The position numbers and the translations under genes are program-made. 64,000 nucleotides of DNA, taken from the NCBI RefSeq assembly GCF_020523965.1, contig NZ_JAJAPX010000005.1, forward strand, positions 1-64,000, in the 5' to 3' direction. The notes under the pieces were generated by a model, which had not been told where the DNA came from, searched no databases, and was given only the letters and a program-made list of their open reading frames with translations. Source of the stretch: Neotamlana sargassicola. GTDB taxonomy: Bacteria > Bacteroidota > Bacteroidia > Flavobacteriales > Flavobacteriaceae. Numbering within the stretch: position 1 is the stretch's first letter; every line of letters starts with the position of its first letter. Positions 22,583 to 28,899 of this stretch are shown here, piece after piece.

Positions 22583-22614
22583 TGTTGTTTATTTATGATG
22601 CTGTTTGGTTTAGT

Positions 22615-22653
22615 GCAGCCGAAATCCACTAGAAGTAATTTATATAATTGTTA
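22615..22653 (+). repeat. Repeat array: 3' remnant of a unit plus spacer
   Basis: The string GTGCAGCCGAAATCC followed by ACTAGAAGTAATTTATATAA is a diverged copy of the right end and spacer seen at 23186-23227, but its left part is missing. It marks the left limit of the array. Confidence 0.6.
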
Positions 22654-22663
22654 GTTATAAAAG

Positions 22664-22744
22664 CACTTCGACTGCGCTCAGTGAGACATTACGTTTGTTT
22701 AAAGTTGTTAAGTTCGGTTGTCAGGTTGAGCGCAGTCGAAACCC
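22664..22744 (+). repeat. Repeat array unit 1
   Basis: An 81-nt unit starting CACTTCGACTGCGCTCAGTG and ending TGAGCGCAGTCGAAACCC. Arms TTCGACTGCGCTCA and TGAGCGCAGTCGAA are perfectly complementary, so the unit folds as a long hairpin. The GIY-YIG gene starts 36 nt later. Confidence 0.85.
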
Positions 22745-22779
22745 TAATTACTAATATCTATATAACAAATAAAGAGAAT

Positions 22780-23094
22780 ATGTTTTCGTACCAAGTTTAC
22801 ATACTTAAATGTTCTGATAGTTCATACTACACTGGTATAACTAATAATTTAGAAAGAAGATTTTTAGAACATCAAAATGGTATAAAAAGAGATTGTTATA
22901 CTTATAAAAGAAGACCTCTAGAAATTGTTTTTTCTGAATCTTTTAATGATGTTCTTCAGGCAATTTATTTTGAAAAGAAAATCAAAAAATGGTCAAGGTT
23001 AAAAAAAGAAGCATTAATAAAAGGTGATTTTGATATGTTGCAAATTTTATCTGAATGTAGAAATGCTACTCATTTTAAGTATAAAGGTGATTAG
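22780..23094 (+). CDS. GIY-YIG nuclease-domain protein
   Basis: About 104 residues from the ATG at 22780 (the frame is open back to 22648, but that part lies in repeat unit 1 and is not expected to be coding). It is a stand-alone GIY-YIG domain: YQVYILKCSDSSYYTGITNN gives the two signature strands, then NLERRFLEHQNG with the catalytic Arg and IYFEKKIKKW with the metal-binding Glu. Single-domain members of this type are common in Bacteroidota with unknown role. It occupies the place of the spacer between repeat units 1 and 2, which suggests that gene and repeats belong together. Confidence 0.85.
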   Translation: MFSYQVYILKCSDSSYYTGITNNLERRFLEHQNGIKRDCYTYKRRPLEIVFSESFNDVLQAIYFEKKIKKWSRLKKEALIKGDFDMLQILSECRNATHFKYKGD

Positions 23095-23118
23095 GTGTAA
23101 TGCTTTAAAGTATATAAA

Positions 23119-23200
23119 CACTTCGACTACACTCAGTGAGACATTGCGTTTAGTTTAATGTTGTAAAATTCAAATGTCAGGTTGAGCGCAGTCGAAACCC
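23119..23200 (+). repeat. Repeat array unit 2
   Basis: Second unit, same orientation as unit 1, starting CACTTCGACTACACTCAGTG and ending GCGCAGTCGAAACCC. Its left arm has two changes relative to unit 1 that weaken the hairpin, while the right arm is unchanged. A 36-nt spacer (23201-23236) separates it from unit 3. Confidence 0.85.
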
Positions 23201-23236
23201 ACTAGAAGTAATTTATATAATTGTTAGGTAAAAAAG

Positions 23237-23318
23237 CACTTCGACTACGCTCAGTGAGACATTGCGTTTAGTTTAAAGTTGTTAAGTTCAAGTGTCAGGT
23301 TGAGCGCAGTCGAAACCC
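23237..23318 (+). repeat. Repeat array unit 3
   Basis: Third unit, 118 nt after unit 2 start to start. The left arm differs from the perfect stem by one base (ACTACGCTCA). The right end GCGCAGTCGAAACCC is identical to units 1 and 2. Confidence 0.85.
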
Positions 23319-23353
23319 AATGAAGTAATTTATATTGTTTCAGAAATAAAAAG

Positions 23354-23391
23354 CACTTCGACTGCGCTCAGTGCGACATTACGTTTAGTTT
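23354..23391 (+). repeat. Repeat array unit 4, left half only
   Basis: It starts CACTTCGACTGCGCTCAGTG, 117 nt after the start of unit 3, and continues CGACATTACGTTTAGTTT before diverging. The right arm is absent, so the array is cut at both ends. The 329 nt between the GIY-YIG gene and the next gene consist almost wholly of units 2-4. Confidence 0.75.
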
Positions 23392-24122: not shown

Positions 24123-24141
24123 AAATAAAGAAATATTGTCG

Positions 24142-24183
24142 CTAACAACTAACAACTAACAACTAACAACTAACAACTAACAA
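24142..24183. repeat. Tandem repeat (CTAACAA)6
   Basis: Six perfect copies of a 7-bp unit, CTAACAA on the plus strand (TTGTTAG on the strand of the pseudouridine synthase). It lies between panB and the start of the synthase gene, 20 nt before the preferred GTG start. Confidence 0.95.
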
Positions 24184-24194
24184 GTAATAACGAA

Positions 24195-28742: not shown

Positions 28743-28754
28743 GCAGAGAGCCGC

Positions 28755-28774
28755 TTTTTACTAAGGTAAAAAGT
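28755..28774 (+). terminator. Hairpin after dnaK
   Basis: CTTTTTAC-TAAG-GTAAAAAG, a perfect 8-bp stem 13 nt after the dnaK stop. It has no U run, so it could be an mRNA 3'-end stem rather than a true terminator. Confidence 0.4.
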
Positions 28775-28784
28775 GTGTGAATCG

Positions 28785-28816
28785 CTTATTCCGAACTCGT
28801 TTCGGAATCGTATAAG
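28785..28816. repeat. Inverted repeat resembling the 28871 element
   Basis: GCTTAT-TCCGAA-CTCGT-TTCGGA-ATCGT-ATAAGC: nested inverted arms with centre GAACTCGTTTC, the same centre as the element at 28871. Confidence 0.6.
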
Positions 28817-28870
28817 CAAAATCTTTAAGTTAGAGTCAAAGTACAGGTATTTCGTATAAATAAAATACAC

Positions 28871-28899
28871 TGTCATGCTGAACTCGTTTCAGCATCTCA
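28871..28899. repeat. Short palindromic repeat (TGTCATGCTGA type)
   Basis: TGTCATGCTGAACTCG followed by TTTCAGCATCTCA; GCTGAA and TTCAGC form the stem. I recall near-identical strings scattered in intergenic regions of flavobacterial genomes, but only partly similar copies are in this window. Confidence 0.55.

Follow-up and report, generated by a model that had tools for sequence, protein, structure and literature searches.

In the available text of Di Nocera et al. (2013, PMC3733652), CGTC-tagged REPs are described as having neither a dedicated transposase nor an associated transposase gene, TGTC is given as a frequent variant of the tag, and the Neisseria dRS3 repeats are equated with this class; the string 'giy' occurs nowhere in that text. 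The better-known GTAG REPs form REPtrons with RAYT/TnpAREP HUH enzymes. As far as the accessible parts of PMC8266576 and PMC3733652 go, REPtrons resemble the locus described here in having tagged short palindromes arranged as inverted dimers, in placing the gene between REPs of its own type, with several REP-enzyme pairs per genome, and in the occurrence of imperfect and perfect palindrome groups. On the enzyme side, the standalone Slx1-like/UPF0213 proteins consist, like ours, of a single GIY-YIG domain, and the accessible part of Dunin-Horkawicz et al. (2006, PMC1564403) examined genomic neighbourhoods and proposed repair or restriction roles, with no occurrence of the string 'palindrom'. 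A search of the open PMC literature by title and start of abstract, with subscription papers and preprints outside its scope, gave no report of a GIY-YIG/REP link among the matches listed, and the pairing described below is apparently unreported so far.

The window, a 64-kb stretch of the Neotamlana sargassicola genome, contains a small GIY-YIG gene within a palindromic repeat array. Read with the tags outward, the array consists of four complete tandem units at 22602-23378, each built as TGTC-REP...REP-GACA, with a period of 117-118 nt by direct-repeat analysis (Table 1). Three units have interiors of 36-37 nt and no gene, similar linkers of 30-31 nt separate the units, and the GIY-YIG gene forms the interior of the second unit. 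Two inverted REPs around a short spacer also make up a REPIN, which the three gene-free units resemble, the remaining unit carrying the gene in that position. Within the window, the repeat clusters in this array: all seven matches to TTCGACTGCGCTCA in the window (up to two mismatches) lie inside 22667-23370, compared with an expected 0.16, and none of 100 shuffles reached seven.

The original prediction of a repeat array around a GIY-YIG gene was borne out, every element that it listed being present in the window. Its period of 117-118 nt and conserved spacer between its units 2-4 agree with our measurement (36-37 nt for the spacer), as does its observation that the left-hand arms vary (TTCGACTGCGCTCA, TTCGACTACACTCA, TTCGACTACGCTCA) while the right end is invariant, the three intact right-hand arms being identical. 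Its division into units had to be redrawn. The 14-nt arms that it folded into one hairpin unit, for example 22667-22680 and 22727-22740, belong to two units facing each other across a linker; its edges of 22615-23391 move to 22602 and 23378; and its 'truncated unit' and 'half of unit 4' disappear, since the outward frame gives four whole units. The gene does lie between its units 1 and 2, but in the outward frame it fills a unit interior. We dropped the earlier A-linker-B frame in favour of the outward one, under which every unit is whole and which fits the gene-bearing units found elsewhere, and the absence of partial units implies that the gene replaces the interior of one unit. Two further features of the window were noted in passing: a CTAACAA tandem repeat at about 24140-24190, behind the RluD-like gene, differs in length between congeners, and at about 28746-28880, beside a different tagged palindrome (TGTCATGCTGAACTCGTTTCAGCAT), 114 nt are missing in the congener G002.

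Table 1 Positions of the repeats, units and gene in the window
Feature	Position	Strand
REP 1, degenerate, TGTT tag, left end of first unit	22602..22626	+
REP 2, right end of first unit, GACA tag outward	22664..22688	-
REP 3, left end of gene-bearing unit, TGTC tag outward	22719..22743	+
GIY-YIG nuclease gene, 104 aa, Slx1/UPF0213-like	22780..23094	+
REP 4, right end of gene-bearing unit, tag outward	23119..23143	-
REP 5, left end of third unit	23175..23199	+
REP 6, right end of third unit	23237..23261	-
REP 7, left end of fourth unit	23293..23317	+
REP 8, right end of fourth unit	23354..23378	-
First unit, left REP degenerate	22602..22688	
Gene-bearing (second) unit, TGTC-REP--GIY-YIG gene--REP-GACA	22719..23143	+
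Third unit	23175..23261	
Fourth unit	23293..23378	
Whole array, four outward-tagged tandem units, 30-31-nt linkers	22602..23378	no strand

Each REP of the window, about 25 nt long, bears an unpaired TGTC tag and is for the rest a small, imperfect palindrome. The core, TGAGCGCAGTCGAA, carries GA on each arm; as read from the sequence, the two doublets would lie opposite one another and give tandem G-A mismatches. The palindrome comprises an outer stem of 3-4 bp, the facing GA doublets and a longer interior. Throughout the window's own genome (G000; 41 contigs, 99.72% complete), an extended REP pattern allowing two mismatches matched 25 times, scattered over five contigs, and its reversed control had no match. 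In 35 distinct REP copies drawn from loci of this genome, including the eight of the window and one (L022) that may be a chance match, the four tag letters were kept in 31, 34, 32 and 30 copies and were not paired. Three outer stem positions varied yet paired in 33, 29 and 33 of the 35 copies, using several pair types, compared with shuffled means of 17.3, 13.2 and 13.4. The outer stem thus covaries, and its structure is under selection. When folded as DNA, two of the three gene-free units formed long single hairpins that none of 200 shuffles equalled (z -3.26 and -4.51), and no excess stability was found for the unit with the degenerate REP (z -0.91) or for single 25-nt REPs (z 0.34 and 0.40). 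A search for an Rfam family returned miRNA matches only, all under the gathering scores, and none was adopted.

Conservation of outer-stem structure rather than of sequence would also be expected if the nuclease acted on transcribed REP hairpins, for instance in autoregulation, with the DNA repeats incidental, and the REPs flank the gene closely enough to be in its transcript. We regard an RNA target as very improbable, since REP copies elsewhere in the genome, at a distance from the gene, have the same tag and stem, and the GIY-YIG families nearest in fold whose function is known have DNA branches as their substrate.

In architecture (tag, palindrome and dimers) the window REP resembles the CGTC-tagged superfamily by sequence: its unpaired TGTC tag falls within the CGTC/TGTC/CCTC set, and a stem-loop palindrome adjoins it. 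It does not fit CGTC families 1-4 as given in the available text of PMC3733652, which have an 8-9-bp stem starting with AT and a 4-5-nt loop, while at many other loci treated below the REPs are of the ATTCCCGC type and look like those families. Several hosts named in that text are shared as well: in Azospirillum lipoferum, Novosphingobium aromaticivorans, Neisseria and Bradyrhizobium we found REPs that match our rule (below) beside the gene, and in S. meliloti CTC-tagged hairpins, recognised by eye only. A Neisseria gonorrhoeae copy of the gene, from the PLSDB set, lies beside hairpins of the CGTC-REP kind.

The gene is an ORF of its own, intergenic between two genes. Its 104-aa product matched PF01541 (GIY-YIG) as its only Pfam family (E 2.2e-17), and a profile of 17 relatives retrieved the UPF0213 structures 1zg2 (E 1.9e-17) and 1ywl (1.8e-13), followed weakly by Slx1. 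An AlphaFold model (mean pLDDT 81.8, pTM 0.72) submitted to Foldseek gave the same order: 1zg2 first (E 1.2e-5, the sole match below 0.001), 1ywl second (0.007), then Slx1 entries at E 0.026-0.1 with TM-scores of 0.48-0.55. In an alignment of 27 sequences Y7, Y17, H31 and E65 were invariant and R27 nearly so; we take these five to be the catalytic residues. GIY-YIG homing endonucleases of the I-TevI type belong to the same nuclease superfamily and would offer a plausible precedent for repair-based spread, but the window gene is intergenic, and its product has no further domain in its 104 residues and no match to TIGR01453. The gene evolves under purifying selection, with dN/dS of 0.15 between the window gene and the G002 copy and 0.00-0.07 in four other pairs, three further pairs being saturated at silent sites.

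Slx1-type enzymes process branched DNA (cf. the title of structure 6seh), and the Slx1/UPF0213 fold and low dN/dS would suit a nuclease kept by the host for genome maintenance, trimming or resolving REP cruciforms and arrest and lying near REPs by co-selection. The trpB-trpA copy of the gene, common to four genomes and accompanied by worn hairpins, would suit it too. We consider this account improbable: a maintenance gene need not be inside a repeat unit, nor present several times per genome with a different REP type each time, and the corresponding site still holds REPs in close relatives that lack the gene.

The generality of the gene-REP association was examined in four locus sets. The discovery set came from a PF01541 search of 31 genomes, that of the window included, and comprised 40 regions around small GIY-YIG genes. 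By eye, many of these genes lay between inverted hairpins with outward GTC tags, whose sequences differed among loci. A first rule requiring a contiguous 6-bp stem was weak (hairpins on both sides of 3/40 GIY-YIG genes and 2/597 others) because many REPs have the facing GA doublets. The later rule demanded GTC, at most one base, and next, within 50 nt, a stem of either 6 bp or more, or 4 bp or more with GA following on both arms; a gene was scored positive when an outward-tagged hairpin lay within 200 nt on both sides. It was written by eye on the Flavobacteriales discovery set and then frozen for the three further sets, whose loci lie mostly outside Flavobacteriales. On the data used to set it, the rule was positive for 14/45 GIY-YIG ORFs and 1/620 others, and for 14/37 once tRNA-linked and long ORFs were removed. 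In the PLSDB set, 14 of 33 protein-search records picked to spread genera (12 genera), it was positive for 7/14 genes and 2/72 neighbours. The genome-contig set held the best 80 of at least 577 relatives, 75 of them testable and five too near a contig end; its record titles name Alpha-, Gamma- and Deltaproteobacteria, Bacteroidetes, Ignavibacteria, Nitrospirae, Anaerolineae, Omnitrophota, Armatimonadetes, Patescibacteria and others. In this set of best relatives, 37/75 genes and 11/416 neighbouring ORFs were positive (Fisher 4.5e-25, overstated since loci share phylogeny, as in every set). Upstream alone, hairpins were found for 55/75 compared with 64/416, downstream for 50/75 compared with 71/416, and on at least one side for 68/75 compared with 124/416, so that seven of the 75 genes had a rule-matching REP on neither side. 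A fourth, gammaproteobacterial set gave 16/24 compared with 0/48; 24 of its 30 loci were testable, six being dropped as near an end or because the motif was not found, and one locus (L237) shares its genome with a genome-contig locus (L171).

The association did not depend on the rule, as 44/75 genome-contig genes and 13/416 neighbours had flanks that share an inverted repeat with a score of 22 or more. Inward-tagged hairpins were enriched on both sides as well (17/75 compared with 14/416), and orientation alone is therefore not diagnostic. Other GIY-YIG families of the discovery genomes, mostly UvrC, had REP-like hairpins upstream in 0/11 cases. Within the family, the rule finds no REP beside the S. 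meliloti gene, whose hairpins are those with the CTC tag, or beside the trpB-trpA genes of G000, G001 and G003, whose hairpins lack the tag. REPs tend to lie in intergenic DNA, as do small mobile genes, and the two might simply pile up together wherever such space is permissive. Controls matched for this preference, each separated from the next ORF by 80 nt or more on both sides, contradict such a coincidence (1/153 compared with 14/45 in the discovery set, 6/133 compared with 37/75 in the genome-contig set), and we give it next to no weight.

The gene-REP pairing is thus directly observed and general across many phyla. It also answers the enrichment check proposed with the original prediction: the repeats do concentrate near GIY-YIG genes, with 13 of 150 listed exact TTCGACTGCGCTCA copies in eight related genomes having a small GIY-YIG gene at most 500 nt away, where about 0.2 would be expected (152 copies in all, two of G009 being unlisted; the 13 come from four loci, two of them orthologous, and both these copies and the small genes of each genome were counted by hand). 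The prediction is thereby supported in part, its suggestion that the nuclease may act on, spread or maintain the repeats being kept as a hypothesis. The accompanying analogy with REP-associated transposases holds for the anatomy, in that tagged inverted REPs flank the gene and such bracketing is enriched over neighbours; it fails for the parts, the tag being TGTC/CGTC and not GTAG and the enzyme a GIY-YIG nuclease and not an HUH/Y1 transposase. No Y1/HUH transposase match (PF01797) was obtained in G000 or its congeners G001 and G003. Other genomes with such REPs do have matches, one weak one each in G002 and G016, 14 in G009 and one to five in four more distant genomes. A RAYT as local mobiliser was rejected on this ground and is not needed to explain the REPs of the window genome.

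Several other GIY-YIG loci were recorded along the way. Small GIY-YIG genes of a second group are found near tRNA genes (Val, Leu, Asn, Arg; loci L082, L089, L091, L096, L031 and L075, in G020, G014, G001 and at G000:C10:944718). On their other side several of them have a partial copy resembling a tRNA, and none has a rule-matching REP at the loci examined for them; this group looks like a tRNA-targeted homing element. Another GIY-YIG clade of the same genomes sits, in several copies, inside a different tagged repeat, GTCACTTCGAGT...TATCGAGAAG (L069 at G000:C10:392381, L088, L092 and L094). On a Planktothrix plasmid (L104), a type IIL restriction gene and DISARM drmA border a REP-flanked GIY-YIG gene on its two sides.

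At the level of whole genomes, one degenerate exact REP spelling was present in 41/50 genomes holding such loci, compared with 0/50 for its reversed control. In the class to which G056 belongs, a genome picked because it has the gene, 185 genomes were compared: a single REP spelling, GTCATTCCCGCNNNNGCGGGAAT, occurred in 20/39 gammaproteobacterial genomes with an A2-clade gene (E at most 1e-25) and in 20/146 without it (Fisher 2.6e-6), and at five or more copies in 9/39 and 10/146. In a reverse search, four of the six outward REP pairs with 200-800 nt inside, among the matches listed, enclosed the gene, one of these lying in G033, which had been picked for carrying it. Protein and REP also covary. 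Similarity of the protein between genomes correlated with similarity of the REP in the discovery set (rho 0.196 over 22 loci with a REP; 17/2000 permutations as high) and in the genome-contig set (rho 0.230 over 72 loci; 1/2000 permutations), and in 9 of the 11 cases where the nearest protein lay in another genome, the REP beside it was closer than that of the nearest home paralogue. The window's own combination of gene and REP recurs in G016 with no neighbouring ORF in common. Protein and REP type therefore vary together, differing even between paralogues within one genome.

We then compared orthologous sites, and found the gene present or absent at four: HK-RluD, trpB-trpA, sufB-sufC and fnrL-response regulator. 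HK-RluD, the site of the array described above, carries gene and array in G000 and G002. By reading, the second of four units holds the gene in G000; in G002 it is the third unit, and the REP at the right of this unit is unrecognisable. G001 has a worn solo REP and no gene there, and G003 a different REP, again with the gene absent. Between trpB and trpA, the gene lies between tagless worn hairpins in G000, G001, G003 and G016, is decayed in G017 and is absent from G002, which has other repeats. Gaps of 5-11 nt in G009, G011, G012 and G018 hold neither gene nor REP. Wherever else both trpB and trpA were found, the gap measures 56 nt to 1.3 kb; G005, G008, G013 and G019 belong to this group and showed no GIY motif. 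A dispersed repeat, GGGCGTTACCACAAGGGTCGGGCTTTC...AATCCCTAACGC, was seen with variants in the trpB-trpA gap of gene-less genomes (L268 in G002, L278 in G008, L283 in G015) and elsewhere (L002, L086). In Azospirillum lipoferum 4B the gene lies in a sufB-sufC gap of 617 nt; three relatives of 95-97% identity lack it and have gaps of 91, 87 and 129 nt. No REP was found by the rule at these empty sites, indicating that a REP is not required at the target. At the fnrL-response regulator site, seven Sphingobium plasmids that cover the query fully carry the gene and four similar Tom plasmids lack it. Three of the latter were inspected: TYG64 has one double-tagged palindrome at the empty site, TYG74 a worn one and TYG72 none by the rule.

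A clean insertion junction or target duplication was not readable at any of the four sites, nor was a clean junction found in the syntenic 64 kb of three congeners, in 21 locus pairs, at sufB-sufC and fnrL, or on pSymB. A 50-kb pSymB stretch of four S. meliloti strains, which holds 2-3 tag-pattern sites only, showed no REP indel.

These comparisons bear on the main rival explanation, that a selfish GIY-YIG gene homes into pre-existing REP dimers as its cutting or landing site, the REPs spreading by other means and gaining nothing. Such a passenger would be expected to occupy exactly the interior that measures 36-37 nt in gene-free units, as the gene does, and to leave empty sites that still carry a REP, as in G001, TYG64 and TYG74. 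It would also account for REP-bearing genomes that lack such a gene: G001 holds 14 and G003 32 copies of the window-type REP, and no window-clade gene was found among the GIY-YIG matches of either. However, the covariation of protein and REP, with paralogues differing within a genome, is more than a passenger needs, and the REP-less empty sites of Azospirillum and of trpB-trpA in G009, G011, G012 and G018 do not suit one that lands in REPs. We therefore think this explanation unlikely, though less so than the other rivals.

The reading we favour, with a probability of roughly 0.6, is that the GIY-YIG nuclease is the cognate enzyme that cuts its REPs, and that repair of the breaks copies units with or without the gene. 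It is favoured by the anatomy, the tag, the covarying stem, the cross-phylum association, protein-REP covariation, purifying selection, presence or absence at orthologous sites and the lack of a Y1/HUH transposase match in the window's genome; against it count the REP-bearing genomes without the gene, the genes without a rule-matching REP and the lack of readable junctions. On this model, the widespread minimal element would be a single-domain GIY-YIG endonuclease encoded between inverted REPs with their CGTC/TGTC tags outward. The nuclease would recognise the tag together with the hairpin or cruciform of one REP, or of a facing REP pair, in DNA that is single-stranded or supercoiled, and we infer that it would cut at the tagged structure so recognised. 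GIY-YIG enzymes hydrolyse DNA, and we know of no rejoining of DNA by them, so that spread must rest on the host: break repair would copy the REP unit into the broken or a new site. A unit copied with the gene would be the autonomous form and one copied without it would give the short dimers, and tandem exchange between units could build arrays such as that of the window. More broadly, CGTC-type REPs may be the ends of unrecognised minimal mobile elements that have no transposase, in which a structure-specific nuclease of about 95 aa cuts the cognate tagged hairpin and host repair copies, the REP dimers being miniature derivatives; we hold this wider proposal at slightly under even odds.

The window locus is modest, yet it exposes a general gene-REP pairing and makes the GIY-YIG nuclease a strong candidate for the agent spreading a common class of bacterial repeats. 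A candidate enzyme for the CGTC REPs, Neisseria dRS3-type repeats included, makes their spread a bench question, with a tractable enzyme-substrate pair whose protein and DNA covary naturally. If the nuclease does spread REPs, at least 577 related genes, often annotated 'GIY-YIG nuclease family protein', would gain a function, and transposase-free transposition would be a common route shaping bacterial intergenic DNA.
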